A stretch of 64,000 nt of DNA from Peptostreptococcus faecalis (GTDB taxonomy: Bacteria > Bacillota > Clostridia > Peptostreptococcales > Peptostreptococcaceae). The stretch is taken from contig NZ_OERU01000001.1 of the NCBI RefSeq assembly GCF_900240845.1, positions 951,079 through 1,015,078 on the forward strand. Direction: 5' to 3'. Below are positions 33,945 through 61,015 of the stretch, piece after piece (position 1 is the stretch's first letter; every line of letters starts with the position of its first letter). Both the position numbers and the translations under genes were made by a program. The notes below the pieces were generated by a model. That model searched no databases and was not told the DNA's origin. It saw only the letters and a program-made list of their open reading frames with translations.

Positions 33945-35108
33945 TTATTTCTTTCTTCTCAAGAAAGTTGGAATAACCATATCATCGTCACCCGCAGTCA
34001 CAGTTTCATCAAAACTATTTGCAAAGTTTTCTTCAGGAACTGGATTTTGCTCAACTTTCTGTTGTTCCACTACTCTAGGTATCTCATTGTACTTAGGAGT
34101 GACTGGTGAAGATGTTTGTCTTCTCAGCTGTGGCGTATTAAAAATATCATCAGACCCATCTTGTAAGCCAGTAGCAACTACTGTTATAACAATTTCATCT
34201 CCGAAATCTTCTCTAGTTGCAGCTCCAAATATTATCATTGCGTCTGGATCACATTTTTGTCTAATTATTTCAGTTGCTTCACTCACTTCAAGCAATCCTA
34301 AATCATTTCCACCTGTTACATTTATCAATACACCCTTAGCTCCATCTATTGTTGTTTCAAGTAAAGGCGATTCTATAGCTTGCTTAGCAGCTATTATTGC
34401 TCTGTCTTCTCCAGCTGCAGTACCCATTCCCATGTGTGCTAGTCCTTGATCCTTCATAACTGCTTCAACGTCAGCAAAGTCTAGATTTATAAGCGCAGAC
34501 TCAGAAATAAGACCAGATATAGACTGTATACCTTGTTTTAATATATCATCAGCCTTTGATAATGCATCTGTTATGCTAGTTCTTTTTTCAATGATCTGAA
34601 GAATTTTATCATTTGGAATTGTAATTAGAGTATCAACATTTTTTCTCAACTCTACTATTCCTTCTTCAGCTTTTTTCATTCTTACTCTTCCTTCAAAAGA
34701 GAAAGGTTTAGTAACTACTCCTACTGTCAATGCTCCTGCATTTTTAGCTATCTGCGCTACTACAGGTGCAGCTCCTGTTCCTGTTCCACCACCCATTCCG
34801 GCAGTTACAAAAACCATATCAGCACCCTCTACAACTTTTGCTATTTCATCTGCAGACTCTTCGGCAGCTTTTTTTCCTTTTTCAGGGTTAGCTCCGGCAC
34901 CTAGTCCTTTTGTAAGTTTTTCACCAATCTGTAGTACATGTTCTGCTTTAGATGCCTCTAAAGCCTGTTTATCAGTATTAAGAGCAACATATTCCACACC
35001 TTTCACGCCTGCACTAATCATGACGTTAATAGCATTGTTTCCGCCGCCACCTACTCCGATAACTTTTATATTGGCAGAGCCTGCTTGCTCTTCAACAAAG
35101 TTTAACAT
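33945..35108 (-). CDS. ftsZ: Cell division protein FtsZ
   Basis: 387 residues. Tubulin-like GTPase: [15 protein letters not shown] near the N-terminus, the signature [15 protein letters not shown], and the [11 protein letters not shown] region. A C-terminal linker and the conserved tail [10 protein letters not shown] bind SepF and other partners; sepF is encoded 7 kb away in this window. FtsZ forms the division ring. The ATG at 35108 has GGGGG 6 nt upstream. ftsA and spoIIGA-sigE-sigG, which often flank ftsZ, are not here. Confidence 0.97.
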
Positions 35109-35161
35109 TTATAAACCCCCATTCACACCATATTTTATGTATGACTAATTATCATAACTAT

Positions 35162-35170
35162 ATTTTACCA
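35162..35170 (-). promoter_or_regulatory. Candidate extended -10 promoter of ftsZ
   Basis: On the minus strand TGG followed by TAAAAT (35170-35162) looks like a TGn-extended -10, about 55 nt before the ftsZ start. The -35 hexamer is poor. Confidence 0.4.
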
Positions 35171-35267
35171 CTTAAATAAATAATATTCTATCTATTCTAT
35201 AATAGCTTAAAAAACACCTTCATTGCAACATTTTTTTAATTTTTTTTGAAATCTACTTAGATGTAAT

Positions 35268-36368
35268 TTATTTAAACTCTTTTGAGATAATGTTATAAAT
35301 CAAATCAATAGAATCTCTTTTACCAAATTCAAGATTTGCTTCAGACATTTTCTTTAATTGTTCGCCATCATCTAATAATTTAAAAATTGTCTCACATAAT
35401 TTTTCTTCTGTAAGTTCTTTTTCTTTTATACAAATGCCTCCTCCTGAATTTTGTAGGCTCATGGCATTATGTTCTTGATGATTTTCAGCTGTATACGCCT
35501 TAGGAACTACTATAGAAGGTACCCCTATGGCTGTAGTCTCAGCCATAGATATAGCTCCTGCACTACCAAGTACCAAGTCTGCTGCTGCTAAGTTCCTAGC
35601 CATATCATCTAAATACGGAACTATTTTCTGATAAGTTTTAAACTCTAAGTCAGAGTGTTTTTTTATAAAATCATCATAATACACTCTACCAGTTGATATC
35701 GTAAATGCTATATCTTCTTCTAACATTTTTAAAAGAGACATTCCGAGTGCATCATTGATCTCTTCTGAGCCACCGCTTCCGCCAGAAACTAAAAGCATTT
35801 TTTTATCATCAGGTATATCTAAAAACTCTCTCGACTCATTTCTAGAAGAGTTAAGAATATCATCTCTCACTGGATTGCCCGTTAGAGACAATTTATTTTT
35901 AGCCTTTTCCGGAAATCTTTTGTGAGAATCCTCAAAACTCGTCATCACAAAATCAACATTTTTTGATAACATCTTATTTGTAATCCCAGGGAATGAATTT
36001 TGTTCATGTATTCCCGTTTTTATTCCCATTTGACTAGCTTTTAAAACAACAGATCCACTTACATATCCACCAGTTCCTATTACAAGATCTGGATTAAATT
36101 CTTTTATTATTTTTTTTGAATGTCTAAGTGATTTCAAAAACATAGCTAATCTTTTTACGTTATCAAAATCAATCTTTCTTTTAAACCCTTTTACTTCTAT
36201 AAATTTTATTTCATATCCATACTTAGGAACTATTTCGGATTCAATTCCATCCCTTGTTCCAACGAATAAAATCTCTGAATCAGGATTTTTTTCTTTAATC
36301 TTATTTGCTATTGCAATTGCGGGGTAAACATGACCTCCAGTTCCTCCGCCTGATAAAATTACCTTCAT
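35268..36368 (-). CDS. murG: Lipid II synthase MurG
   Basis: 366 residues, GT28 family. The N-terminal GGGTGGHVYPAIAIA binds the lipid acceptor side, while GTGGYVSGSVV, GSAGAISMAE and ENHQEHNAMSLQNSGGG form the UDP-GlcNAc pocket. It adds GlcNAc to lipid I on the inner membrane face. It follows murD by 28 nt. spoVE/ftsW, murB and ftsQ, usual neighbours in Firmicutes, are missing from both sides. Confidence 0.96.
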   Translation of the reverse strand: MKVILSGGGTGGHVYPAIAIANKIKEKNPDSEILFVGTRDGIESEIVPKYGYEIKFIEVKGFKRKIDFDNVKRLAMFLKSLRHSKKIIKEFNPDLVIGTGGYVSGSVVLKASQMGIKTGIHEQNSFPGITNKMLSKNVDFVMTSFEDSHKRFPEKAKNKLSLTGNPVRDDILNSSRNESREFLDIPDDKKMLLVSGGSGGSEEINDALGMSLLKMLEEDIAFTISTGRVYYDDFIKKHSDLEFKTYQKIVPYLDDMARNLAAADLVLGSAGAISMAETTAIGVPSIVVPKAYTAENHQEHNAMSLQNSGGGICIKEKELTEEKLCETIFKLLDDGEQLKKMSEANLEFGKRDSIDLIYNIISKEFK

Positions 36369-36396
36369 CGTATTCCCCTTATCTATATGAATTTGC

Positions 36397-37767
36397 TCAT
36401 TTTATTTCGCTAACACATTTTTTAAAGTCATTTCCTCGTTCTTCATAATTATTATACATCCCCCAACTAGCGCATGCAGGAGATAATAATACAATATCAC
36501 CATCTTTAGAAATTTCTTTTGAAATTTCCACAGCGTCTTTCATAGAAGCCGCCTTATGTATGTTAACAATTCCAAATTTAATAGCAGTTTTCCCAATTAA
36601 CTCCGCTGTCTCTCCAAGAGCAATTACCGAACTCACATTTTTCTTAGCGACGTCAAATAACTCTGAAAAATCACTTCCCTTATCATATCCTCCTGCTATT
36701 AATACAATTGGTTCTTCATACGATTGAACTGCCTTAATAGTAGAGTCAGGGTTAGTTCCCTTTGAATCATTGACATATTTCACCCCGTTTACAGTATCTA
36801 CATATTCTAATCTGTGTTCTACTGCTTTGAATGTTTTCAATACTCTCACTATAATATCTTTATCTATTCCATAGGAGATAGCAATTCCTATTGCAGCCAT
36901 ACAGTTTTCTAAATTATGACTACCCGGTAAACTTAACTCTTTTTTATTAATTATTTTTTCAATACTTCCATCTTTTGAAAAAACTATATTTCCTTCATCA
37001 TCCAAATATATCCCACTGTCTAACTTTTCTTTTCGTGAAAAATAGACTACATCTGCTGGATTGTTCAATCCCATATCGTGAGTCAAGTCATCATCGTAAT
37101 TTAGTATACATTTATCATCTTTATTTTGATTTACAAATATATTAGACTTTGCCAAAGCATAATTCTGCATTGTGTGATGTCTATTCATATGATCTTCTGT
37201 TAAATTTAATACTGCCGATATTTCTGGTCTAAATTCTACTATACTTTCTAGCTGGAAGCTTGATAACTCAGTTACTAGTACTGAATTCTCACTAGCTTCA
37301 TCTGCTGCTTGAACGGCAGGATTTCCTATATTTCCTACCACATAGCTTTCCCATTCAGTAGATTTAAATATTTCACCAACAATTGATGTAGTGGTAGTTT
37401 TACCATTTGTACCAGTAATTCCTATAAAGTGCAGATTTTTATCAAGACCTATTCTATAAGCCAATTCTATTTCACTCATTATCACTTTTTTATTTTCCCT
37501 TAATTCGACTATATAGTCTAAATCAAGAGGTACTCCTGGAGATACTACTGCAAAATCAATGTTTTTCAACTCACTTGAAGTGGGATTTTTCCCTAATATG
37601 AACTCTATATCACCTAAGTTTTTTAATTCTATCAAAATTCCAGAGTTTTTATCTACGTTTTTTGAATCACATAAAACTACTCTTGCTCCATTTTTTAATA
37701 AGTATTTGGCAGAGGCTAGTCCAGACTTCCCCATACCAATAACTAATACTTTGTTTTTTTCAAACAA
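36397..37767 (-). CDS. murD: UDP-MurNAc-L-Ala:D-Glu ligase MurD
   Basis: 456 residues from TTG 37767, six nucleotides after AGAGGTG. An alternative GTG at 37776 overlaps that site. N-terminal Rossmann fold VLVIGMGKSGLASAKYLL, central P-loop GITGTNGKTTTTSI, C-terminal ligase domain with NDSKGTNPDSTIKA. It adds D-glutamate to UDP-MurNAc-L-alanine. Start of a murD-murG unit with its own promoter at 37842-37850. Confidence 0.96.
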   Translation of the reverse strand: MFEKNKVLVIGMGKSGLASAKYLLKNGARVVLCDSKNVDKNSGILIELKNLGDIEFILGKNPTSSELKNIDFAVVSPGVPLDLDYIVELRENKKVIMSEIELAYRIGLDKNLHFIGITGTNGKTTTTSIVGEIFKSTEWESYVVGNIGNPAVQAADEASENSVLVTELSSFQLESIVEFRPEISAVLNLTEDHMNRHHTMQNYALAKSNIFVNQNKDDKCILNYDDDLTHDMGLNNPADVVYFSRKEKLDSGIYLDDEGNIVFSKDGSIEKIINKKELSLPGSHNLENCMAAIGIAISYGIDKDIIVRVLKTFKAVEHRLEYVDTVNGVKYVNDSKGTNPDSTIKAVQSYEEPIVLIAGGYDKGSDFSELFDVAKKNVSSVIALGETAELIGKTAIKFGIVNIHKAASMKDAVEISKEISKDGDIVLLSPACASWGMYNNYEERGNDFKKCVSEIK

Positions 37768-37841
37768 TATTGTCACCTCTATTCAGTTTAAGTAAACTGT
37801 TTTTATTGCAATTTTATAACATCTGTCAATTTCACAAACCT

Positions 37842-37850
37842 ATTATACCA
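37842..37850 (-). promoter_or_regulatory. Extended -10 promoter of murD-murG
   Basis: TGGTATAAT on the minus strand is a perfect TGn-extended -10. The -35 hexamer is weak, which such promoters tolerate. It lies about 75 nt upstream of murD, after the terminator that ends mraY (37918-37956). Confidence 0.6.
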
Positions 37851-37917
37851 TATATGACAGTATTGTTCATTACTTTGACGCAATTTATTCCTATAGCAAA
37901 CCACATATAACTTAAAT

Positions 37918-37956
37918 AAGCACAAGAACATACCCATATAGGCATATCTTGTGCTT
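37918..37956 (-). terminator. Terminator after mraY
   Basis: AAGCACAAGA (37918-37927) and its exact complement TCTTGTGCTT (37947-37956) form a stem around an internal secondary hairpin, 18 nt past the mraY stop. Confidence 0.65.
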
Positions 37957-37973
37957 ATTTTGTACAAATTTAT

Positions 37974-38939
37974 CTAAAATATTGCTATTACACCAACCCA
38001 TGCTAGCATAATAGATACTAACCAAAAAATAAAAACAACCTTTGTTTCAGGCCAACCGCACTGCTCATAGTGATGATGCAGCGGTGCCATTTTAAAAATT
38101 CTTTTTCTAGTTTTTTTGAAATACATTACTTGTATTATGACCGATAGAGCCTCAGCAAAATAAATTCCACCAACTATAGGAATTATTAAAATAGTATTTG
38201 TAAATAATGCAAAGGCTGTTACAGCACCGCCAAGCGCCATAGATCCAGTATCACCCATAAAAACTCTAGCAGGATTTACATTAAACCATAAAAATCCTAT
38301 ACATGCTCCTAAAGTTGCTGCTGACATCTGTGAAATTTCAACGTTATTTACAACAAAAAGAGCAAATGCCATAAAAAACAAGGATACTATTGCTGTAATT
38401 CCACTTGCTAGTCCATCTAATCCATCTGTTAAGTTTACAGCATTTACAGTCCCTAATATAGCAACAATCATAACAGGAATATAAAAAATTCCAATGTTAA
38501 TTCCAGTATTTAGAAAAGGAACAATAAATTGCACGCCGCCTTCTATAGAGTTATATTTATACAGTGTAACTATAAGAGCTAATAAAACTTGTAAAAATAA
38601 TTTTTGTTTTGCTGTTAATCCTAAAGATCTTTGCATTTTTATTTTTACAAAATCATCTATAAAACCAATAGCTCCAAATCCTAACATACAAAGCAGAGCT
38701 ATAAGTATGTCATTATTAATTTTGGTTCTAAATAATGTCGCAACCAATATAGCCACTATCATTAAAACGCCACCCATTGTAGGTGTACCATTTTTTTTAA
38801 GATGCGACTGAGGTCCATCATCTCTTATAGTTTGACCAAATTTGAATTTGTGTAAAGCTGGTATTAGCATAGGCCCCATTACCATAACTAATAGAAATGA
38901 TATTATAGCCGTAAAAGTTACGTCTCTAATTGTTAACAT
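37974..38939 (-). CDS. mraY: Phospho-MurNAc-pentapeptide transferase MraY
   Basis: 321 residues and about ten membrane helices. Motifs are complete: PTMGGVLMI, GFIDDFVKI, VNAVNLTDGLDGLASG, FMGDTGSMALGG and MAPLHHHYEQCGWPE. It forms lipid I from UDP-MurNAc-pentapeptide and undecaprenyl phosphate. Its start overlaps the murF end by 7 nt. It is a useful comparison for the divergent MraY-like gene at 9585-10412. Confidence 0.97.
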   Translation of the reverse strand: MLTIRDVTFTAIISFLLVMVMGPMLIPALHKFKFGQTIRDDGPQSHLKKNGTPTMGGVLMIVAILVATLFRTKINNDILIALLCMLGFGAIGFIDDFVKIKMQRSLGLTAKQKLFLQVLLALIVTLYKYNSIEGGVQFIVPFLNTGINIGIFYIPVMIVAILGTVNAVNLTDGLDGLASGITAIVSLFFMAFALFVVNNVEISQMSAATLGACIGFLWFNVNPARVFMGDTGSMALGGAVTAFALFTNTILIIPIVGGIYFAEALSVIIQVMYFKKTRKRIFKMAPLHHHYEQCGWPETKVVFIFWLVSIMLAWVGVIAIF

Positions 38940-40342
38940 TGGCTTACCTCCTCTAAGTACTCAACTATATCTTCGAATTTCATTCCTCTAGATGCTTTAG
39001 CCAATATTACATCGTCATTCTTTATTATTTGTTGAATATTTTTTATTAAATCTTCTTTTTTATCAAAGTGGTATACATTTTCAGAATCAAAACCATTCTC
39101 GATAGCTTCAAGCCCTATGTACTTTGACGCTTCTCCAGAAGTCAAAATAACATCTGATTTTTTTGCAGCTTCTTTTCCAATTCGTCTATGTGATCCTTCT
39201 GCAAATTCTCCCATTTCCAAGCAATCTCCCAGTATAGCTACCTTTCTTCTATTTTTGTATAAAGAAAGCACTTTTAAACTGGCAATCATCGAATCTGGAC
39301 TTGCATTATATACATCGTTTATAATCGTCATATTTTTTGTTTGAATTATATCTTGTCTATTTTCTGTTGGTATGAAATTAAGCAAGCCTGCTCTTATTTC
39401 ATCAATATCCATTTCTAGTGATAAACCTACTAGTATAGCAGACATAGCATTATAAATATTGTGAACTCCTACTGTTGGTATTTCAAACTGAAAATCGCCT
39501 TCATTAGTCGTTACGATAAATTTTGTGCTTTTATTTTCATATGTTTCAAATTCACTACAATACAATGTGTTTTTTTCAGAAAAACCAAAAGACATTATAT
39601 TGTATTTTTTCTGTACAAAGGATTTATCTTTATTATCAACTAATTTTCCTAGAAAATCATCATCTCCGTTAACTATTAATGTCGAATTTTCATCGAAAAA
39701 AGTTGTTATTTCCATCTTTGCTTTGAATATATTTTCTTGATTTCCAAGTCTCTCAATATGCGACATCCCAATATTAGATATAACACCTATTTTAGGTCTC
39801 ACAATATCAGCTAAATACTGTATCTCTCCTAAACCTGTCATTCCCATTTCAATTATCGCACATTTGTATCGTTCATCTAAATTAAAAACTGTCAGCGGTA
39901 CACCGAACTGGTTGTTTAGATTTTTTTCATTTTTAAGCGTATTAAATCTGTTTGAAACAACGGAGTAAACCATGTCTCTAGTCGTAGTTTTTCCGACACT
40001 CCCTGTAACTGCTACCACAGGAATATCAAATCTTTGAATATAATATTTCGCAATTTTACCCATTGCAATCTCTGTATTATCAACAATAACTACATTAGAA
40101 TCATATATTTCTTTAGATATATAACTTGCATCACTAATCATAAAATTTCTACACCCTTGATCGTATGCTGACTTTATAAATTTATGTCCATCTTGATTCT
40201 CACCTATTATAGAAATAAATAGAGAAGAAGAATCCGCATCTCTACTGTCTATTACTATTTTATCGATTTCATTATCAACATTGCCATACATTAATTTTCC
40301 AGCTGTTGATTTAATAATCTCTTCAATTTTTAAGCTGTTCAT
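38933..40342 (-). CDS. murF: UDP-MurNAc-tripeptide:D-Ala-D-Ala ligase MurF
   Basis: 469 residues, Mur ligase family. N-terminal domain with IDSRDADSSSLFISI, P-loop VTGSVGKTTTRDMVYSV, C-terminal NDVYNASPDSMIASL. It adds D-Ala-D-Ala to the UDP-MurNAc-tripeptide. The gene overlaps mraY and precedes it in transcription. The ATG has GGGGGG upstream. Confidence 0.95.
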   Translation of the reverse strand: MNSLKIEEIIKSTAGKLMYGNVDNEIDKIVIDSRDADSSSLFISIIGENQDGHKFIKSAYDQGCRNFMISDASYISKEIYDSNVVIVDNTEIAMGKIAKYYIQRFDIPVVAVTGSVGKTTTRDMVYSVVSNRFNTLKNEKNLNNQFGVPLTVFNLDERYKCAIIEMGMTGLGEIQYLADIVRPKIGVISNIGMSHIERLGNQENIFKAKMEITTFFDENSTLIVNGDDDFLGKLVDNKDKSFVQKKYNIMSFGFSEKNTLYCSEFETYENKSTKFIVTTNEGDFQFEIPTVGVHNIYNAMSAILVGLSLEMDIDEIRAGLLNFIPTENRQDIIQTKNMTIINDVYNASPDSMIASLKVLSLYKNRRKVAILGDCLEMGEFAEGSHRRIGKEAAKKSDVILTSGEASKYIGLEAIENGFDSENVYHFDKKEDLIKNIQQIIKNDDVILAKASRGMKFEDIVEYLEEVSQC

Positions 40343-40352
40343 ATTTGCCCCC

Positions 40353-40376
40353 TAAAAAAACTGATTAAATTCAGTT
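40353..40376 (-). terminator. Weak terminator between rsmH and murF
   Basis: On the minus strand AACTGA (40376-40371) pairs with TCAGTT (40364-40359) around a six-base loop, followed by seven T residues. It lies between the rsmH stop (40419) and the murF start (40342), so it may limit read-through into murF. Confidence 0.45.
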
Positions 40377-40418
40377 GAAATATTTTTTTCATTTTCAACA
40401 TATATTATGATAACAGTT

Positions 40419-41354
40419 TTACTTTTTTTCTGCTACCCTTAATTTTGAACTTCTTGATCTAGGGTTAATATCTATTTCTTCATCCGTTGGTAAAATAGGT
40501 TTTCTAGTGATAATTTTTATTTCACTAATCTTATCACATTGACAAAATGGTAGTTCAGGAGGACATATGCAGCTAGAACTCAAATATTTGTATTCATTTT
40601 TGACAATCCTATCTTCCAATGAGTGAAAAGTTATTATACATATTCGACCACCGGGATTTAACATTGAAACAGAATCATCTATCATATCTTTTATAACGCC
40701 CAACTCATTATTTACCTCAATTCTTATTGCTTGAAACGTTCTTTTAGCAGGATGTGGTCCGTTTATTCTAGCTTTTTTAGGTATAGCCTTTTTTATTATT
40801 TCAACTAATTCGTATGTCGTATCAATTGATTTATCTTGTCTACTTTCAACGATAAATTTCGCTATTCTTCTAGACCAATTTTCTTCTCCGTAATCTTTTA
40901 TTATTCTATTTAACTCATCTTCTGAATATGAGTTTACTATATCCCATGCCGTTTTATCCGCTCGATTATCCATTCTCATATCAAGAGGTGCATCATTCAT
41001 GTATGAAAAACCTCTAGACGCTTCATCAAGTTGATGAGAAGATACTCCCAAGTCAGCTAAAACACCATCTACTTTATATATACCTCTTGATTCTAACTCT
41101 TCTTTTATATTCTTGAAATTGCTGTGAATCAAAATTATTCTATCTCCGAAGCTACTTAATCTTTCTTTTGCCACGTTTATAGCATTAATATCTTGATCAA
41201 AGCATATTAATCTTCCTTCTTCCGAAAGATTCTTCGCGATTTCTTTGCTGTGTCCTGCACCTCCCATTGTACAATCCACATATACACCATCTGGTTTTAT
41301 ATTTAAATTTTCTATACATTCTTCTAACAATACAGAAACGTGATTAAATTCCAT
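40419..41354 (-). CDS. rsmH: 16S rRNA (cytosine1402-N4)-methyltransferase RsmH
   Basis: 311 residues. Opens [20 protein letters not shown] motif [15 protein letters not shown], then [31 protein letters not shown] and [15 protein letters not shown]. It methylates C1402 of 16S rRNA in the decoding centre. Usually the first gene of the dcw cluster, with ftsL after it; no ftsL is seen here. It overlaps the end of lgt by 11 nt. Confidence 0.96.
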
Positions 41355-45331: not shown

Positions 45332-46429
45332 TTATACATTAAATTTAAACAATATAACATCTCCATCTTTTACAATGTACTCTTTTCCTTCAAGTCTTAC
45401 TAGCCCTTTTTCTTTTGCAGCAGACATAGTTCCGTGATCAACTAAATCATCAAATGCTATAGTTTCAGCCTTGATAAATCCTCTTTCAATATCTGAGTGA
45501 ATTTTACCTCCAGCTTGAGGAGCTTTTGTTCCATTTTTTATAGTCCAAGCCCTTACTTCCTGTGGACCAGCTGTTAAATAAGAAATCAAGCCTAGTAAAT
45601 GATATGATGATTTTATTAGTTTATCTAATCCAGACTCCTTCAGCCCAAGAGTTTCCAAGAATTCTATTTTTTCTTCATCAGTTTCTAGTTCTGATATTTC
45701 TGCTTCAATTTGAGCGCAAATAACTACTACTTCTGAATTTTCAGTAGCTGCAAATTCTCTTACTGCTTCTACCATTTCATTATCAGAACCATCATTTGCA
45801 AGATCATCTTCTGATACGTTTGCCATATATATAACTGGTTTTGAGCTGATCAAGTCTAGAGAGTTTACGAAATTCCAGTCATCTTCACTCATTTCCATTG
45901 TTCTTATACTTTTACCAGACTCTAATACTTCTTTAACGTTTTTTAAAATTTCTAACTCAGATTGTAACTTCTTATCAGCTTTTAAACCCTTTGTAGTTTT
46001 TGCTATTCTTCTATCAAGTATTTCTATATCAGAGAATATAAGTTCTAGATTAATTGTTTCTATATCTCTTAATGAATCTATTTTACCGTCAACATGAACT
46101 ACATTAGGATCTTCAAAACATCTTACTACATGCACAATAGCATCAACTTCTCTTATATTTGATAAGAATTTATTTCCTAAACCTTCTCCTTTTGATGCTC
46201 CTTTTACCAATCCAGCAATATCTACAAATTCTATTGCAGTTTGAATTATTTTTTTTGAATTATATAGTTCCTGAAGTTTGTCTAATCTTTTATCTGGAAC
46301 AGACACAACTCCAACATTCGAATCTATTGTACAAAAAGGATAATTTGCAGATTCAGCTCCTGCTTGTGTTATAGCGTTAAAAAGTGTACTTTTGCCCACG
46401 TTTGGCAATCCCACTATACCTAATTTCAT
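45332..46429 (-). CDS. ychF: Redox-regulated ATPase YchF (OBG family)
   Basis: 365 residues. P-loop [15 protein letters not shown]2/G3 [13 protein letters not shown] and [16 protein letters not shown], the atypical ATP-specifying [11 protein letters not shown] in place of NKxD, and a C-terminal TGS-like domain with [19 protein letters not shown]. It binds ATP rather than GTP and associates with ribosomes. It stands alone between two terminators. Confidence 0.95.
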
Positions 46430-47156: not shown

Positions 47157-48557
47157 TTAAAAATCATTTTTTGAATCAGGCTTTTTCATATTATTAGGCG
47201 CACCTACTTGAACTGGAAGACTCTTATCCATTTGCCATAAGTTCCATCCACCATCATATATTACAAAATTGTCCCAACCCATCATCTGAGTCATTTCCCA
47301 AGATATTGCAGCTCTCCATCCTGTTCCACAGTAAAAAGCTCCCTTATCTTCTTTCTTTATTCCTTGAGCTTCCCATAACTGAGCTAATTCCAATGGATTT
47401 CTCAAAGTATTATCTGGGTCATAATAATCTTGCATATTTGCAGCATCAGATCCTGCAAATCCCCAAATAGCACCCTTAGGTTCACCCTTTTCTGGAATAT
47501 AATCATATCCACTAGTCTTTCCTATGTATTCATCCCAAGATCTAACACTTATAAGTTTTAAACCTTCCGATTTCATCTTTGCATCAGCTTCTTTTGCAGT
47601 GGATATATTGAATTGAGGGTTCATTGGAACAGTAGCTTTAAATGAATCTACCTTTTTAGGAATATTTACTTTTGTTTCTACAGGTAGTTTTGCACTTTCC
47701 CATGCCTGTAATCCTCCATTAAGTACTTTCACGTCTTCTACTCCCGCCCATCTAAGAGCAAACATAACTCTATATGCTGCAGATTGGTCGTTTGAATAAA
47801 GCACTATTGTTTTGTCCTTTGTTATTCCTAGATCCTGAAGATTTTTTTGTATTACTTCTGGCTTAGATAGGTTCCACTCCGGTCCATTTTCAATTAAATC
47901 AGTATTAAAGTGATAAGCTCCCTTAATATGTGATTTATTATAGTCTTTAGCTTGGTCAACTGGACCCCATGAAACTTCAAAAATAGCATATTCACTAGAT
48001 TCATATGATTCTGGTTTGTTTCCATCCATCAAATCTTTCAACCACTCAGAGTTTACTAATTGTGAATATCTTTCGAACTTAACTAATTTGTTTTTATCGT
48101 TTTTAACGTATTCATCAAATTTATCGTATGCTAATACGTTATATCCTAGTTCTTTAAGTAATCCGCCTACCTTATCAACATTTTTCTTATCAGTATCATA
48201 AACTACTACTTTTTTGTCTTTTTTGATACCTTTGTCTTCTACAAATTTAGAAAGTTTTTCTTTTTTTACCTTTCCTACCCAGTCTGATGTATACTGAACC
48301 GCACCTTCAATATGTCCTCCTCTAGACTGATCTTTTTGCTTAAATCCATTATAATAACTATCATTTCTTGTGTCTACGAAAATATACTCATCGTTGCCCA
48401 CATTTTTCTCTACATCAGCAGTAGAAATTGTTTCAAGCTTTACATTGCTTTTTGTCTCTTCATTTGAAGATTCCGCTTTTTTGTTAGAGCATCCAGTAAG
48501 AACTAGACCTGCTACTAAAAAAGTAGATAAAACACCGTATTTAATTTTTTTATTCAT
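47157..48557 (-). CDS. Triple-rhodanese lipoprotein
   Basis: 466 residues. A lipoprotein signal peptide ends at LTGC (Cys23), so it should be diacylated by Lgt and face outside. Three rhodanese domains follow: about 42-160 (VVVYDTDKK, Asp121 at the Cys position), about 190-300 (IVLYSNDQSAAYR, Ser255 at the Cys position) and about 325-450 (GAFYCGTGWRAA, Cys410). Only the last keeps the sulfur-accepting Cys. It is co-transcribed with a four-helix membrane protein. Sulfurtransferase activity outside the membrane is predicted; the substrate is not known. The ATG has GGAGGG upstream. Confidence 0.85.
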   Translation of the reverse strand: MNKKIKYGVLSTFLVAGLVLTGCSNKKAESSNEETKSNVKLETISTADVEKNVGNDEYIFVDTRNDSYYNGFKQKDQSRGGHIEGAVQYTSDWVGKVKKEKLSKFVEDKGIKKDKKVVVYDTDKKNVDKVGGLLKELGYNVLAYDKFDEYVKNDKNKLVKFERYSQLVNSEWLKDLMDGNKPESYESSEYAIFEVSWGPVDQAKDYNKSHIKGAYHFNTDLIENGPEWNLSKPEVIQKNLQDLGITKDKTIVLYSNDQSAAYRVMFALRWAGVEDVKVLNGGLQAWESAKLPVETKVNIPKKVDSFKATVPMNPQFNISTAKEADAKMKSEGLKLISVRSWDEYIGKTSGYDYIPEKGEPKGAIWGFAGSDAANMQDYYDPDNTLRNPLELAQLWEAQGIKKEDKGAFYCGTGWRAAISWEMTQMMGWDNFVIYDGGWNLWQMDKSLPVQVGAPNNMKKPDSKNDF

Positions 48558-49367: not shown

Positions 49368-49395
49368 AAGCCTTGTAATGTATATTACAAGGCTT
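49368..49395. terminator. Bidirectional terminator between DUF308 gene and murE
   Basis: A perfect 12-bp stem (AAGCCTTGTAAT, complement at 49384-49395) with a four-base loop and T runs on both strands. Transcription converges here. Confidence 0.85.
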
Positions 49396-49407: not shown

Positions 49408-50895
49408 TTAATTATTCTTTTTAAGTATTCTAGCAGCAGCGTTTATAACTTCGCCTTTTTCGTCGTAGAACACTCTTTCTCCATTCACATATTGATATTT
49501 TTCATGTCCCTTGCCTGCTATTACGACCATGTCTCCATCAGTTGCTATTTCAAGGGCCTTTTGTATTGCTTCGGCTCTATCAACTATTTTAATTACCTCG
49601 CTTTTAGAATTATGAAAACACTCTGCTATATCATTGATAATCTGCATTGGATCTTCATCATCAGGGTTATCTGTCGTTAAAATTGATACGTCACAAAGCT
49701 CCGCAGCTACCTCTCCTAACTCTTTTCTTCTTATAGCTGTTCTTCCGCCTACAGATCCAAATAAACAGATCATTCTGTTTGGTTTATATTGTAATAATGT
49801 TTTTAAAACATTTTCTAAACTCATTCCATTATGTGCATAATCAACAACTACAGTTGCATATGGTAAAACAGGTAAAACTTCAACTCTACCATCTACTTTA
49901 GCTTTTGAAAGCGCACCTAGATATTTCTCTTTATCTAAATCCAAACACTCGCATGTAGAAATCACAGCTAGAGCATTGTAAATACTAAATTCTCCTGGAG
50001 AAGATATAGATGTATGGATAGGAGTTTCTCCTTTTTCTATGTAGTCAAACTCAGCTCCTAATGAATCTTCACTTCTTGTAAGAGTAATATTTGTCGCTTT
50101 TAAGTCACTCTCTTTTTCAATAGAAAAAGTTTTTATTTCACAATCTGCATTTTCTATCATATAATCTGAATTTTCATCATCTAAATTGATTATTCCATAT
50201 TTGCATAATTTGAATAGCTGACTCTTACAGTATCTATAATCTTCAAAAGTAGGGTGTTCTTTTGGCCCAATATGGTCAGGAGATAAGTTTGTATATATTC
50301 CTATATCAAAATTAACATCATTTACCCTTTGCATCATTAAACCACCAGAAGACACTTCCATTGCTACGCATTCTACACCCGCATCGACCATTTTTCTGAT
50401 CGTCTTGTGAATTTCATAGCTTTCCGGTGTAGTGTTTACAGTCTTTCCTTCGTAGTCATTATAGAAAATACCATTTGTTCCTATAACTCCAGTATTCATT
50501 CCGGATTCATCTAACACTGACTTTAGATAATTTGAAATGGTTGTTTTTCCTTTTGTTCCGGTAACCCCAATCACTTTAATTTTTTCTGATGGTCTATCAA
50601 AAAAGTTGTTAGACATTTTTGATAAAGCAGATCTACTACAAGATACTAACAGCTTTACACTATCTTCAGGAAGCTTAATATTTCTGTTGACTACGAATAC
50701 TCTACATCCTCTTTCGTATGCTTTATCTATATAGTCATGCCCATCTACTGTTTCGCCTTCTATAGCAACAAAAATTTGATTTTCACTAGCTAGCCTAGAG
50801 TCATATGCTATTCCCTCGATTTCAACCTCATCTAGAGTATCTAATTTTGCGTTGGAAATATATTCTAACCCTTCAATAATTCTGCTAAGTTTCAT
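49408..50895 (-). CDS. murE: UDP-MurNAc-dipeptide:diamino acid ligase MurE, non-DAP type
   Basis: 495 residues from ATG 50895 with AGAGGAGA upstream; the 50910 start is a TTG with no separate site. P-loop VTGTKGKTTISNYL (about 111-124), substrate loop and C-terminal domain. The motif that selects the third residue of the stem peptide reads DNPD at 409-412 (TTDNPDDEDP). DAP-adding enzymes have DNPR, whose Arg contacts the second carboxylate, so this enzyme should add lysine or another diamine such as ornithine. It ends the operon with aspartate racemase and the D-Asp ligase. Confidence 0.93.
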   Translation of the reverse strand: MKLSRIIEGLEYISNAKLDTLDEVEIEGIAYDSRLASENQIFVAIEGETVDGHDYIDKAYERGCRVFVVNRNIKLPEDSVKLLVSCSRSALSKMSNNFFDRPSEKIKVIGVTGTKGKTTISNYLKSVLDESGMNTGVIGTNGIFYNDYEGKTVNTTPESYEIHKTIRKMVDAGVECVAMEVSSGGLMMQRVNDVNFDIGIYTNLSPDHIGPKEHPTFEDYRYCKSQLFKLCKYGIINLDDENSDYMIENADCEIKTFSIEKESDLKATNITLTRSEDSLGAEFDYIEKGETPIHTSISSPGEFSIYNALAVISTCECLDLDKEKYLGALSKAKVDGRVEVLPVLPYATVVVDYAHNGMSLENVLKTLLQYKPNRMICLFGSVGGRTAIRRKELGEVAAELCDVSILTTDNPDDEDPMQIINDIAECFHNSKSEVIKIVDRAEAIQKALEIATDGDMVVIAGKGHEKYQYVNGERVFYDEKGEVINAAARILKKNN

Positions 50896-50925
50896 TTGTT
50901 CTCCTCTCAAATTTTTAAATAAGAT

Positions 50926-51636
50926 CTAATTATTTTTTAGTTTTTTTTCTGATTTCAATATTACCTGTCTTGCCAATACTTCTGATGAATCTACGTAAAA
51001 ATCATTCGGTAATTTTTTATCTTTTTTAATAATAGACAGCTCTGTGCAACCTAGTATAGCACAATCACAACCATTCGATTTTAAATCATCTATTATTTCG
51101 TTAAATGTATTCATATTAGCCTTTTTACCAGCTTTTACATCTTCATATATAATCTTCATAACCTTATTTTGTATCTCCTCGTCGACTACATAATAATCAA
51201 CTTTTTTAGCTTCGCACATGTTTTGATATAGCTTAGTCTGTATATTGCCTGTAGTGGCCAAAATACCAATTTTTTTATGACCATCATCTATTGCATGTTG
51301 CACAGTTTCTTCAACCATATTAAGCAGAGGAACATTTACACTTTTAGAAATTTCTTCATAAAAGTAATGAGCCGTGTTACAAGTCAATACTATAAAGTCA
51401 ACACCTGCTGCTTCTAATCTCTTTGCATCTTCCACGATTTGATCTAGAGGACTGTCATCAGATTTTCCAACTATATATGCCGTCCTGTCTGGAGTAGTCG
51501 CTCTATTTATAATGATCATATCCACGTGTTCTTGATCTATACTGGCCTCAGTCATTTCTACCACTAAATCATAAAAATATACAGTAGCCATCGGACCCAA
51601 CCCACCTAAAACACCAACAGTTTTTCCTTTTGACAT
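50926..51636 (-). CDS. racD: Aspartate/glutamate racemase family protein
   Basis: 236 residues. PLP-independent two-cysteine racemase: [17 protein letters not shown] opening, Cys86 in [10 protein letters not shown] and Cys197 in LGCTELSII. The GLGPMAT opening fits aspartate racemases rather than MurI. It should supply D-aspartate. It lies 15 nt after the ATP-grasp gene and 30 nt before murE, which points to a role in the cross-bridge. The ATG has TAGGAG upstream. Confidence 0.88.
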
Positions 51637-51651
51637 ATTTTTATCTCCTAT

Positions 51652-52863
51652 TTATTTACAGTATTTCTTAAATTTTCTTTTTTGATTTATATTATATAAT
51701 TCTATATACAATTTTCTTTTGAAATTTCCCTTTAAATCATAATCATAGTAAAAAGCACTCGCGCTTTTGCCTTCTTTCTCAAGCTTTTTACACTGATCCA
51801 CAAGATCTTTATTTTCCACATATTTGTACACAATTGAACTTGGTATAACATGCCAATAAAACGGATCTCTCTGTATCTTTAATTCTAAGTCTTTTTTATA
51901 CACTCTGTCTTCAACTACGTATCTAGCAATATTATTTCCAGAAGAAGTAACATAATTATTGCTTCTCCCTTGTCTTAGGTTAATTTCAAATACCTTAAAC
52001 TTACCATCTCTACTATCATACTTTATATCAAAATTTGAAAATCCTACAAAACCTATTTCTTCTAAGAAAGTTTTATATTTATTCATTAATTCTTCTTCAT
52101 ATTCTGTAATAATAGCAGCGTGATTTCCTATTCCCTTTGGAGTATGTTCTTCTAACAATACGTGACCTAAACACATCATTTTTACTTTTCCGTTTATATC
52201 AGAATAACATGTCAATACTCTCATGTTTTCATCTTTTCCAGGTATAAAGTCTTGTATTATCATACTTTTTTCATATCCATGAGAATATATTTCCTTAATT
52301 ATAGTATTGAATTCTTCTTCATCATTTACTATATAGGCTTTATTCATACCTTCGAACGAATGTTGGAAAAAAGATATGCTATCAGAAGCCTTTACAATCA
52401 CAGGATATTTAAATCCAAAGTCCCTTGTTTCATCTCCATTATTATATATATATGTCTTTGGGTAATCTAGTCCATATTTTTCACACACTTCATAAAAAGA
52501 TTCTTTTTCTACTAATTTATTCTTAAGATCTGAGTCAATATAAGGAACTATAAATTTTGTTTTTAATTTGTCCCTATTGTCTATAATCAGCTCTGCATAT
52601 TCATCAGTGCATCCCATTAAAATAAGCTTTTCGTCATCATTATGCTTATCAGCTTCATCTAGAAGTATGTCTACAAACATATCTTCGTTTGTTATGTTAG
52701 GTTCTATTCTAAAGTCGATTATCTTACTATCTTTCGTTGCTCCTAAAGGATATCGACCAAATGCAATAGATTTGACACCATATTCCTCATGAAATGCTCT
52801 AGCAACACTATAGCAGTTAAGATCTCCACCACATAATATGGGTTGAATTTTAATATTTCCCAC
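51652..52863 (-). CDS. ATP-grasp ligase, probable D-aspartate ligase for the peptidoglycan cross-bridge
   Basis: 403 residues from GTG 52863 after AGGTG. Begins IQPILCGGDLNCYSVARAFHEEYG, in the style of the D-aspartate ligase Asl of Enterococcus faecium and its relatives. ATP-grasp features: PVIVKASDSISFF, MIIQDFIPGKDENMRVL and the metal-binding end FEINLRQGRSNNYV. It would join D-Asp to the lysine side chain of UDP-MurNAc-pentapeptide. The gene is first in the operon with aspartate racemase and murE, which fits this exactly. Other carboxylate-amine ligase roles are possible without the context. Confidence 0.8.
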   Translation of the reverse strand: MGNIKIQPILCGGDLNCYSVARAFHEEYGVKSIAFGRYPLGATKDSKIIDFRIEPNITNEDMFVDILLDEADKHNDDEKLILMGCTDEYAELIIDNRDKLKTKFIVPYIDSDLKNKLVEKESFYEVCEKYGLDYPKTYIYNNGDETRDFGFKYPVIVKASDSISFFQHSFEGMNKAYIVNDEEEFNTIIKEIYSHGYEKSMIIQDFIPGKDENMRVLTCYSDINGKVKMMCLGHVLLEEHTPKGIGNHAAIITEYEEELMNKYKTFLEEIGFVGFSNFDIKYDSRDGKFKVFEINLRQGRSNNYVTSSGNNIARYVVEDRVYKKDLELKIQRDPFYWHVIPSSIVYKYVENKDLVDQCKKLEKEGKSASAFYYDYDLKGNFKRKLYIELYNINQKRKFKKYCK

Positions 52864-52991
52864 TTTAATACACCTCTTTTTATTTATATTTTATCTAAAT
52901 TTTTAAATGAATTAAAAATACTTATCCATTCTAAACACATTATTTATGATATCTTATCATGAAGATATTTGCAAGATTAGAATAAATGAAT

Positions 52992-57484: not shown

Positions 57485-60400
57485 TTACATTTCAGATCTT
57501 TTTTTATATCCTTCATATCTTTCCTTAGCATTTTCTTCCGCCATTGCGAATAACTCTTCGCTTTCTTCTGGGAACATTTTTGCTATTGAAGCATATCTAT
57601 TCTGACCCATTATAAACTCTCTGAATGATTCAGTTGGTTCTTTTGAATCTAAGATAAATGGATTCTTTCCTTCTTTCTTAAGTTCTGGATTGAATCTGTA
57701 TAGATGCCAGTATCCTGCCTTAACAGCATCAGCTTCGTTTTCAACAGATTTACCCATTCCCTTCTTAATTCCGTGGCTTATACATGGAGCATAAGCTATT
57801 ATTAGAGAAGGTCCTTCATGCTTTTCAGCTTCTAACATTACCTTAAGAACGTGGTTCTTGTCAGCTCCTATTGCTACCTGAGCAACATAAACATTTCCGT
57901 AAGTAGCTGCCATCATACCTAAGTCTTTCTTCTTAGATCTCTTACCTGCAGCTGCAAACTTAGCCATTGCTGCCATTGGAGTAGACTTAGATGACTGTCC
58001 ACCAGTATTTGAGTAAATTTCTGTATCAAATACAAGTACATTTACATTTTCACCTGATGCAAGTACGTGGTCTAATCCACCGTAACCTATATCATAAGCC
58101 CAACCGTCTCCACCAAGTATCCAGTTACTTCTCTTAACGAAGTAATCCTTCAAGTCAGCAAGTTGCTTAGTTATTTCTAATTCTTTTCCTTCTAATACAT
58201 ATCTATCTACTAGTGACATGAATGCATCAGTTGTAGCAACTGTGTTGTCACTGTTTTGCATATTTTCTATGTATTCATTTACTATGTTCTTATCATCTCC
58301 TGAAGCTTTTTCAGCTAATTCAGTAGCTAAGTTCTTAACTCTATTTCTTAACTGTTTAACTGCTAAGTACATTCCGTATCCGTATTCAGCATTATCTTCG
58401 AATAATGAGTTTGCCCATGATGGACCCTTACCTTCGTGGTTTATTGTGTAAGGAGTTGCTGGTGCTGAAGCTCCCCATATTGAAGAACAACCTGTAGCAT
58501 TTGCAACCATCATTCTTGGTCCAAATAACTGAGTTACTAACTTCATGTAAGCTGTTTCACCACAACCTGCACAAGCTCCTGAGAACTCAAGCAATGGCTG
58601 AGCAAACTGAGAACCCTTTACAGTAGTCTTTGGCATAACATTTGGCTTAGCTGATACTTTATTGAAATCAGTAGCGAAATACCAATTTTCTTCCTGAACT
58701 TCTCTTTGTTCTTCCATTGGCTTCATAACTAAAGCTTTTGTCTTAGCTGGACAAATGTCAGCACAGTTTCCACAACCAGTACAATCCATTGCAGATACCT
58801 GAATTCTGTACTGATATGGTTCTAATCCCTTACCAACAGCCTTCTTAGTTTCAAATGATTCTGGAGCATTTGCTACTTCTTCTTCAGTTAATAAGAAAGG
58901 TCTTATTGCTGCATGAGGACATACTAGAGAACACTGGTTACACTGTATACAGTTGTCTATTTGCCATTCTGGAACATCAACTGCTATACTTCTCTTTTCG
59001 TATGCTGCTGTTCCCTGAGGGAAATGTCCATCTTCATGTCCGTTGAATGCTGATACTGGAAGAGAGTTTCCTTCTACTGCATTCATTGGTCTTAATATAT
59101 TCTTGATGAAAGCTGGTTCATCCTTAGTTTCTACTGCTTCATCTACTGCATCTGCCCAAGAAGCTGGAACATCTATCTTAACCATAGCATCCATACCCTT
59201 TTCAACAGCTTCGTAGTTCATGTTTACGATCTTATCACCCTTTTTACCGTAAGTCTTCTTTATAGAATCCTTAAGATACTTAACAGCATCTTCAGCTGGT
59301 ATTATGTTAGCTAGCTTAAAGAAAGCAGCCTGAGCGATCATGTTTATTCTATTTCCTAATCCTATTTCTTTAGCTATATTTACAGCATCTAAAGTATAGA
59401 AGTTTATTTCGTTTCTAGCAAGGTATCTCTTTAGGTTAGCTGGAAGATTTGCATCTAGTTCTTCTGCATTCCAGATAGTGTTAAGTACAAAAGTACCACC
59501 CTTTCTAAGACCCTTTGTTAAATCATACTGATATACATAGCTCTGCTTATGACATGCAATGTAATCCGCTTCATCTAAAAGATAAGTTGATCTAATTGGA
59601 CTATCACCAAATCTTAAGTGTGACATTGTTATACCACCAGATTTCTTTGAATCATAGTCAAAGTAAGCCTGTACGTATTTATCTGTGTTATCACCGATGA
59701 TCTTTATAGCCTGCTTATTAGCACCAACAGTACCATCTGAGCCAAGACCCCAGAATTTACATCTTACAGTACCTGGCTGTGCAATCTTTATTTCTTCCTT
59801 AGCTTCTATAGAGTGATTTGTTACATCATCAATGATGCTTAATACAAATCTATCCTTAGGATTTTCAGAAGTTAAGTTTTCAAACGCTGCATTAAGATCA
59901 GTAGGTATAGTATCCTTTGAACCTAATCCGTATCTTCCACCAATAATCATTGGAGCGTTTTCTTTTCCGTAGTAAATACCCTTAATATCAAGGTATAGAG
60001 GTTCTCCGTTTGAACCTGGTTCTTTTGTTCTATCTAATACAACAATTCTTTCTACAGTGCTTGGCATTGTATCTAAGAAATGTTTTGTAGAGAAAGGTCT
60101 GTAAAGGTGAACTTTAACGATACCATACTTTCCGCCTCTAGCATTTAGAACGTCTATTAATTCTTCAGCTGCTTCTGTAACAGATCCCATAGCTACCATT
60201 ACGTATTTAGCATCTTCTGCACCATAGTAATCAAATAGTCCATGTTTTCTTCCTGTCAATTCTGACATTTTGTTCATATATTTTTCAACTACGTTTACCA
60301 TATTGTCATAGTACTTGTTTGAAGCTTCTCTTGTCTGGAAGTAAATGTCAGGGTTCTGAGCAGTACCTCTAGTCACTGGATGATTTGGAGAAAGAGAGTT

Positions 60401-61015
60401 ATCTCTAAATTCCTTTACTGCGTCAAAGTTAAGTAACTTAGCGTAGTCTTCATTTTCAAATAATTCAACTTTCTGAATTTCATGAGATGTTCTGAATCCA
60501 TCAAAGAAATGTATAAATGGTAATTTACCTTCTATTGATGCATAGTGTGCAACTGGAGCAATATCAGCAACTTCCTGAACTGATCCTGAAGCAAGTAAAC
60601 AACATCCAGTCATTCTAGCTGACATAACGTCTTGATGGTCTCCGAAGATTGAAAGAGCTTGTGATGCTAGCGCACGAGCTGATACGTGGAAAACTCCTGG
60701 TAATAATTCACCAGCACATTTATACATATTTGGAAGCATTAATAATAGCCCCTGTGATGCTGTATAAGTAGAAGTAAGAGCTCCTCCTGCAAGTGAGCCG
60801 TGGAATGCTCCTGCTGCTCCACCTTCAGATTGCATTTCTACGACTTCAACAACCTGTCCAAAAATGTTTTTTCTTCCTTGTGAAGCCCATTCGTCAACAA
60901 CTTCAGCCATTGTTGAAGAAGGTGTTATTGGGTAAATAGCAGCCACATCTGTAAAGCAATACGATACGTGCGCAGCAGCTGTGTTACCATCAACTGTTTT
61001 CATGAATTTAGCCAT
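57485..61015 (-). CDS. nifJ: Pyruvate:ferredoxin (flavodoxin) oxidoreductase
   Basis: 1176 residues, a one-chain PFOR. Domain order: pyrimidine-binding domain (ITPSSTMAEVVDEWAS), domain II, two ferredoxin-type 4Fe4S clusters (CIQCNQCSLVCPHA and CTGCGNCADICPA) and the C-terminal TPP domain (GACAGCGETAYMKL and GGDGWAYDIGYGGLDH). It oxidises pyruvate to acetyl-CoA with reduced ferredoxin, the central fuel step of anaerobes. It is the longest gene in the window and monocistronic. Strongly biased codon use (many preferred TTA, AGA codons) suggests high expression. Confidence 0.97.
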   Translation of the reverse strand: MAKFMKTVDGNTAAAHVSYCFTDVAAIYPITPSSTMAEVVDEWASQGRKNIFGQVVEVVEMQSEGGAAGAFHGSLAGGALTSTYTASQGLLLMLPNMYKCAGELLPGVFHVSARALASQALSIFGDHQDVMSARMTGCCLLASGSVQEVADIAPVAHYASIEGKLPFIHFFDGFRTSHEIQKVELFENEDYAKLLNFDAVKEFRDNSLSPNHPVTRGTAQNPDIYFQTREASNKYYDNMVNVVEKYMNKMSELTGRKHGLFDYYGAEDAKYVMVAMGSVTEAAEELIDVLNARGGKYGIVKVHLYRPFSTKHFLDTMPSTVERIVVLDRTKEPGSNGEPLYLDIKGIYYGKENAPMIIGGRYGLGSKDTIPTDLNAAFENLTSENPKDRFVLSIIDDVTNHSIEAKEEIKIAQPGTVRCKFWGLGSDGTVGANKQAIKIIGDNTDKYVQAYFDYDSKKSGGITMSHLRFGDSPIRSTYLLDEADYIACHKQSYVYQYDLTKGLRKGGTFVLNTIWNAEELDANLPANLKRYLARNEINFYTLDAVNIAKEIGLGNRINMIAQAAFFKLANIIPAEDAVKYLKDSIKKTYGKKGDKIVNMNYEAVEKGMDAMVKIDVPASWADAVDEAVETKDEPAFIKNILRPMNAVEGNSLPVSAFNGHEDGHFPQGTAAYEKRSIAVDVPEWQIDNCIQCNQCSLVCPHAAIRPFLLTEEEVANAPESFETKKAVGKGLEPYQYRIQVSAMDCTGCGNCADICPAKTKALVMKPMEEQREVQEENWYFATDFNKVSAKPNVMPKTTVKGSQFAQPLLEFSGACAGCGETAYMKLVTQLFGPRMMVANATGCSSIWGASAPATPYTINHEGKGPSWANSLFEDNAEYGYGMYLAVKQLRNRVKNLATELAEKASGDDKNIVNEYIENMQNSDNTVATTDAFMSLVDRYVLEGKELEITKQLADLKDYFVKRSNWILGGDGWAYDIGYGGLDHVLASGENVNVLVFDTEIYSNTGGQSSKSTPMAAMAKFAAAGKRSKKKDLGMMAATYGNVYVAQVAIGADKNHVLKVMLEAEKHEGPSLIIAYAPCISHGIKKGMGKSVENEADAVKAGYWHLYRFNPELKKEGKNPFILDSKEPTESFREFIMGQNRYASIAKMFPEESEELFAMAEENAKERYEGYKKRSEM

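Follow-up and report, generated by a model that had tools for sequence, protein, structure and literature searches.

A stretch of 64,000 nucleotides (nt) from Peptostreptococcus faecalis (contig NZ_OERU01000001.1, positions 951,079 to 1,015,078; called here the window, with positions counted from its first letter) carries an operon of three genes, coding for a ligase of the ATP-grasp type, an aspartate-type racemase and MurE. We propose, with a probability of about 0.7, that this operon gives a vegetative cell wall without meso-diaminopimelic acid (DAP), most likely of the L-Lys-D-Asp type, that the MurE with the motif DNPR and the dapF gene found in spore-forming relatives serve the spore cortex, and that Peptostreptococcus lost both together with sporulation. 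The racemase would convert L-Asp to D-Asp, MurE would put L-Lys rather than meso-DAP at the third stem position, and the ligase would activate D-Asp as an acyl phosphate and attach it to the side-chain amine of the third residue before cross-linking. In Peptostreptococcaceae the trio would act as one cassette, located in a slot where many relatives have a DAP-type murE; the spore-formers with the cassette would retain the ancestral enzyme elsewhere.

An earlier note on this DNA had read the three genes as one pathway leading to a Lys-D-Asp cross-bridge. The pathway reading is supported by a single MurE without the Arg of the DAP motif, by the failure to find dapF, by a separate MurI and by homologues of the ligase in lactobacilli. 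As for the bridge, a non-DAP wall bridged by a D-amino acid is supported; Lys over Orn and D-Asp over D-Glu are not settled by sequence.

The position of the three genes and the spacing of 15 and 30 nt given in that note were borne out by open reading frame calls; the genes lie head to tail on the minus strand. The predicted D-aspartate ligase, Asl-like (51652..52863, GTG start, 403 aa), is followed by the predicted aspartate racemase, RacD-like (50926..51636, ATG start, 236 aa), and by murE, a predicted UDP-MurNAc-tripeptide synthetase (49408..50895, ATG start, 495 aa). The longest possible MurE frame opens at TTG 50910; since this codon overlaps the ribosome-binding site GAGAGGAGAACA, translation probably starts at ATG 50895, which leaves the gap of 30 nt.

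The product of the third gene is a member of the MurE family (TIGR01085, 422.5 bits; cut-off 257.3), and it was the single match of a MurE search of the genome at E up to 1e-30; this genome (2,145,294 bases in 29 contigs, rated 100% complete and 2.6% contaminated) has five Mur-ligase-domain matches: the operon MurE, MurF, MurD, MurC and FolC. At residue 409 the protein has DNPD, replacing the DNPR of DAP enzymes, with GKGHE downstream. Its best match among solved structures is 4c12 (1.2e-73), which we take to be the MurE of Staphylococcus aureus, and in the alignment with 4c12 the counterparts of Asp406, Asn407 and Glu460 are kept. According to an excerpt of PMC3829189, the Arg of DNPR binds meso-DAP; in the S. 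aureus enzyme, which adds Lys, Ala takes its place, and the Lys amine is held by Asp406 and Glu460. The operon MurE resembles 4c12 in that the DAP-motif Arg is missing and the Lys-site residues Asp, Asn and Glu are kept; unlike 4c12, it has DNPD instead of DNPA and belongs to a clostridial clade with operon partners. Among the Peptostreptococcaceae MurE rows read, DNPD was found in 23/23 rows from trios, DNPR in 27/27 non-trio rows and in 17/17 rows of second MurEs.

In the racemase, both catalytic Cys residues named by the earlier note, Cys86 (TCNTAH) and Cys197 (GCTE), are present and align with those of the aspartate racemase 1jfl, the closest solved structure (7e-51). The protein scores 225.6 bits against the asp_race model TIGR00035 (cut-off 93.1). 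One other member of the superfamily is encoded in the genome, on another contig: the glutamate racemase MurI (TIGR00067, 254.5 bits; cut-off 146.65). Because of this separate MurI the operon racemase is not needed for D-Glu, and its candidacy as the D-Glu source was set aside.

The ligase has only a weak Pfam match, to CPSase_L_D2 (20.4 bits; cut-off 19.8); its predicted structure (predicted local distance difference test score 91.7) has a clear ATP-grasp fold, with PylC as the best Foldseek match. PylC is an ATP-grasp enzyme as well, and the title of its PDB entry 4ffm names L-lysine-N-epsilon-D-ornithine, i.e. a D-amino acid on a Lys side chain; however, with 13% identity to the ligase, and with VIA-align Z higher for 2pn1 (27.1) than for PylC (24.1), the likeness is one of fold kinship only. 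The nearest named relatives of the ligase are at seven Peptostreptococcus loci (canis, MV1, porci, D1, two of russellii, anaerobius; 80-83% identity). Farther away, at 38-43% identity, are homologues in Lactobacillus crispatus, L. curvatus and L. fermentum, all three of which keep 47-53 of the 65 invariant columns; the homologue adjoins asnB in L. crispatus and a racemase in L. curvatus. The wall of L. fermentum ATCC 9338 is given as A4beta L-Orn-D-Asp in an excerpt of PMC6024572. Relatives of the ligase (up to 44.5% identity) are also encoded in six unannotated records from phage collections (H21-H26), some of which may be bacterial DNA within phage assemblies.

The earlier note knew of no standard arrangement with murE as the third gene. 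The arrangement is not singular: among the 80 ligase loci analysed (80 of the 146 relatives found), ligase, racemase and murE are contiguous in 56, so the operon goes beyond chance neighbourhood and is recurrent in Clostridia. The racemase directly follows the ligase in 66 of the 80 loci. Ligase and murE without a racemase in between were seen at 12 loci, murE 300-1200 nt past the racemase at three, ligase and racemase without a MurE match at seven (three of them close to a contig end), and the ligase alone at two (one close to a contig end). In the open-licence literature we found no description of such an operon in Clostridia, though one may exist in print, and no stated wall type of Peptostreptococcus or Terrisporobacter.

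Two lineages of non-DAP MurE accompany the ligase. The first, with DNPD or DNPN, comes from 15 Peptostreptococcaceae-type loci and seven loci of metagenome-assembled genomes (MAGs). The second, more diverged lineage (group B; for example, L031 7949-9466) has EDPG in 32/45 rows and occurs in Lachnospiraceae, Oscillospiraceae and others. In some spoIVA-negative genomes, for instance those of Eubacterium brachy (L075, EDSN) and E. ruminantium (L058), no MurE other than the group B type was found; the diverged protein is therefore probably a working enzyme. An approximately unbiased test on a MurE tree built from 55 of 125 rows gave p = 0.099 for the two lineages as one clade, a value that shows neither one origin nor two. 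The ligase tree unites the rows of Peptostreptococcaceae, MAGs and Subdoligranulum in one group (33 rows, support 99/97), separate from the Lachnospiraceae type, and the racemase tree resembles it in grouping.

Within the family, 28 of the 71 Peptostreptococcaceae genomes surveyed have the ligase, and they fall into two kinds. All nine Peptostreptococcus genomes have one MurE, with dapF, spoIVA and a second MurE not found. Each of the other 19 carriers has the trio MurE, a second MurE, dapF and spoIVA; the second MurE has DNPR in all 17 cases where it could be read whole (in G012 it is split over two contigs, with the piece NPRTEDP seen, and in G017 it is cut before the motif). A further genome, G068, where a trio-type MurE beside ychF is broken by a contig end, was counted as ligase-free. 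All eight spoIVA-negative family genomes without the ligase keep MurE and dapF (one of them is only 75% complete); sporulation loss alone therefore does not cost a genome its DAP enzyme.

The location of the trio suggests how it came to be there. In the window it is flanked, with other genes intervening, by genes that we take to be ychF (45332..46429, minus strand; the left border of the slot) and the gene for pyruvate:ferredoxin oxidoreductase (PFOR; 57485..61015, minus strand; the right border). Six of the seven whole trio stretches lie near ychF (L161, L163, L164, L181, L182 and L184), with PFOR on the opposite side of the trio in L161, L164 and L184; in the seventh, L183, no ychF was present within the 18 kb fetched. 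Among the 27 stretches with a non-trio MurE, a DNPR murE is near ychF in 12 (e.g. L160, with the order ychF, murE, PFOR) and near PFOR without ychF in the stretch in three; nine have it in the division and cell wall (dcw) cluster and three elsewhere. In the MurE tree (omitting the short fragment L180, and L024) the trio MurEs and six MAG rows form one clade (support 99), apart from the DNPR MurEs of the family, while the second DNPR MurEs nest in the family's own DNPR clade, as they do in a reduced tree of 55 rows. The simplest history for slot and trees together is a take-over of the resident gene's slot by the cassette MurE, with the ancestral MurE persisting at another place.

Several other arrangements were observed in the family. 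In the ligase-free genome G050 a racemase 55% identical to that of the trio (L201 5246-5965) stands one gene from a DNPR murE; it is either what is left of a cassette or a forerunner of it. In G001, far diverged racemase, MurE-like and ligase-like genes (32%, 31% and 27% identity) are present in a different order (L179 4221-7721); the dcw cluster of this genome contains a normal DNPR MurE. The dcw cluster of the window (33945-41354) is without murE, and without a gene for a protein of 369-428 aa that sits between murD and murG in nine family members having murE in dcw; presumably, it is a gene of the FtsW/SpoVE kind.

The pattern of second MurE and sporulation was followed in 62 further genomes: nine of the MAG group and 53 of the 56 of group B (L042, L049 and L067 were left out). 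It held in 57 of them. A DNPR-type MurE was present in 33 of the 34 spoIVA-positive genomes (two read DNSR, L024 and L027) and absent from 24 of the 28 spoIVA-negative ones. Fisher's test on the 90 genomes pooled gave 5e-19, for rows that are related by descent. On the ligase tree, eight of the nine clades lacking a DNPR MurE are wholly spoIVA-negative, and eight of the 12 clades without spoIVA have no DNPR MurE. We lean slightly towards the wider statement that a cassette of ligase and non-DAP murE, with or without the racemase, is widespread in Clostridia and makes a vegetative wall bridged by a D-amino acid, that a separate DNPR MurE with the DAP pathway is kept only for the cortex and lost with sporulation, which would leave cocci with a Lys wall such as Peptostreptococcus, and that the EDPG lineage has the same role in Lachnospiraceae and Oscillospiraceae.

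A number of results speak against our proposal as a whole or in part, and they are gathered in this paragraph and the next. The ligase is predicted to be Asl-like through its kinship to the homologues in lactobacilli; with the Asl/AslA-RacD systems of Enterococcus faecium and Lactococcus lactis (racD and aslA are in one operon in L. lactis, according to an excerpt of PMC4155827) it shares, by description rather than by direct comparison with those sequences, the pairing of an ATP-grasp ligase with an aspartate-type racemase and a predicted D-Asp on the third-residue side chain; it differs from them in the third gene of its operon, a murE that lacks the DAP motif. A wall of the same kind made of other residues, with L-Orn as third residue and/or D-Glu in the bridge (Lys-D-Glu, Orn-D-Asp, Orn-D-Glu), is unlikely in our judgement. 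In its favour, DNPD cannot discriminate Lys from Orn, the racemase is of the Asp/Glu superfamily, L. fermentum is typed with Orn, and L-Lys-D-Glu is reported for Anaerococcus prevotii (in an excerpt of PMC3035230). This reading is disfavoured by the separate MurI, which makes a second D-Glu source unneeded, by the closeness of the racemase to 1jfl among solved structures, and by the occurrence of ligase relatives in lactobacilli, including one whose wall type has a D-Asp bridge. Peptostreptococcus anaerobius is of the Lys-D-Asp wall type. The operon MurE passes the NCBIfam DAP-ligase model NF001126 (462.5 bits; cut-off 373) and stays below the cut-off of the Lys-ligase model NF010628 (382.9 versus 536), as would be expected if it were a DAP ligase, with ligase and racemase serving some role outside peptidoglycan. 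However, NF001126 seems independent of the motif, since the DNPR MurE of Coprococcus comes scores similarly (483.4 bits, above the cut-off); given the missed cut-off of NF010628, we do not count the protein among the members of that model and class it simply as a MurE that lacks the DAP motif. A search of the window genome for dapF gave no match (the search did not extend to ddh, by which meso-DAP can be made independently of dapF); together with the constancy of DNPD in the trio rows of the family and the conserved linkage of the three genes, this makes a DAP ligase very improbable. We give still less credence to the idea that the racemase is a cysteate racemase placed here by incidental gene order: it does exceed the cut-off (190) of the CuyB model NF052483, with 214.4 bits here and 209.8 in L031; against this, it scores as high with asp_race, and the ordered linkage, the racemase directly after the ligase in most loci and murE usually next, speaks against incidental neighbourhood.

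The link between the second MurE and sporulation could also stem from common descent of the genomes and from gaps in the MAGs, in which case the additional MurE would make a mixed wall or be a spare; this is unlikely too. The genomes are indeed related, and many beyond the family survey are MAGs. Four genomes are spoIVA-negative and still have a DNPR MurE (L055, L071, L077 and L085), L062 is spoIVA-positive by a partial match and has none, and L023, which was counted as a match, has ligase and racemase with a DNPR protein as its only MurE; in L020 the non-DAP MurE (DNPG) is not adjacent to the ligase. The nine Peptostreptococcus genomes amount to one loss event, and four of the 12 clades without spoIVA, all single MAGs, keep the DNPR enzyme. 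Among pairs on the ligase tree that differ in spoIVA, eight were supported as independent, with MurE differing in the same direction in 4.7, in the opposite direction in 0.1 and undecided in 3.2 (averages); with a median p of 0.0625, the sign test comes close to 0.05 and does not pass it. The reverse pairing gave six pairs, 4.5 in the same direction and none opposite (median p = 0.125). A scan for sigma-E/K-like promoters before the second MurEs put 2/17 above threshold versus 1/17 controls, with shuffle expectations of 1.18 and 1.01; the string CATAnnnT was seen in 15/17 versus 5/17 controls, an excess that we did not count because in L153, for one, it falls within the coding region of the upstream gene. 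What argues against ancestry as the explanation is that the clades without a DNPR MurE are, with a single exception, wholly spoIVA-negative, and that the ligase-free family members without spoIVA have all kept MurE and dapF.

A division of labour between two MurE activities has a precedent in Lysinibacillus (Bacillus) sphaericus, where the vegetative wall is of the Lys-D-Asp type and the cortex contains DAP. The likeness is in the split between a vegetative and a cortex MurE, based on chemistry there and on gene content here; unlike our case, L. sphaericus is a member of Bacilli for which no trio is claimed, and Peptostreptococcus has only the vegetative half.

The surroundings of the operon add a few features. 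Past the 3'-end of murE is a terminator-like inverted repeat (49368..49395, minus strand; 12 pairs in the stem, then a T-rich tail), which is terminator-like on the plus strand too. A weak promoter-like site precedes the ligase (52946..52974, minus strand; 9/12 match), although the number of such sites in the region was not clearly higher than in shuffled sequence. Directly upstream of the ligase is a gene for a CmpB-type membrane protein (PF06541; 52992-53972), a neighbour that every named Peptostreptococcus locus except L018 has (6/7) and that was seen at none of the 73 other ligase loci searched. Also near the operon, 47157-48557 encodes a protein that resembles a lipoprotein and contains three rhodanese stretches.

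If the proposal is true, a single operon would be enough to read the wall chemotype of many gut clostridia that have not been cultured, and the genes for two walls within one spore-former could be told apart. Wall chemotype bears on sensing by NOD receptors and on targeting by endolysins. There is a warning for annotation as well, since at least one current family model (NF001126) labels a MurE of this kind as a DAP ligase. For the family, the proposal would offer a simple route from a spore-former with a DAP wall to a Lys-type coccus that does not sporulate: the vegetative cassette would be gained, and the cortex enzyme would then be lost with sporulation.

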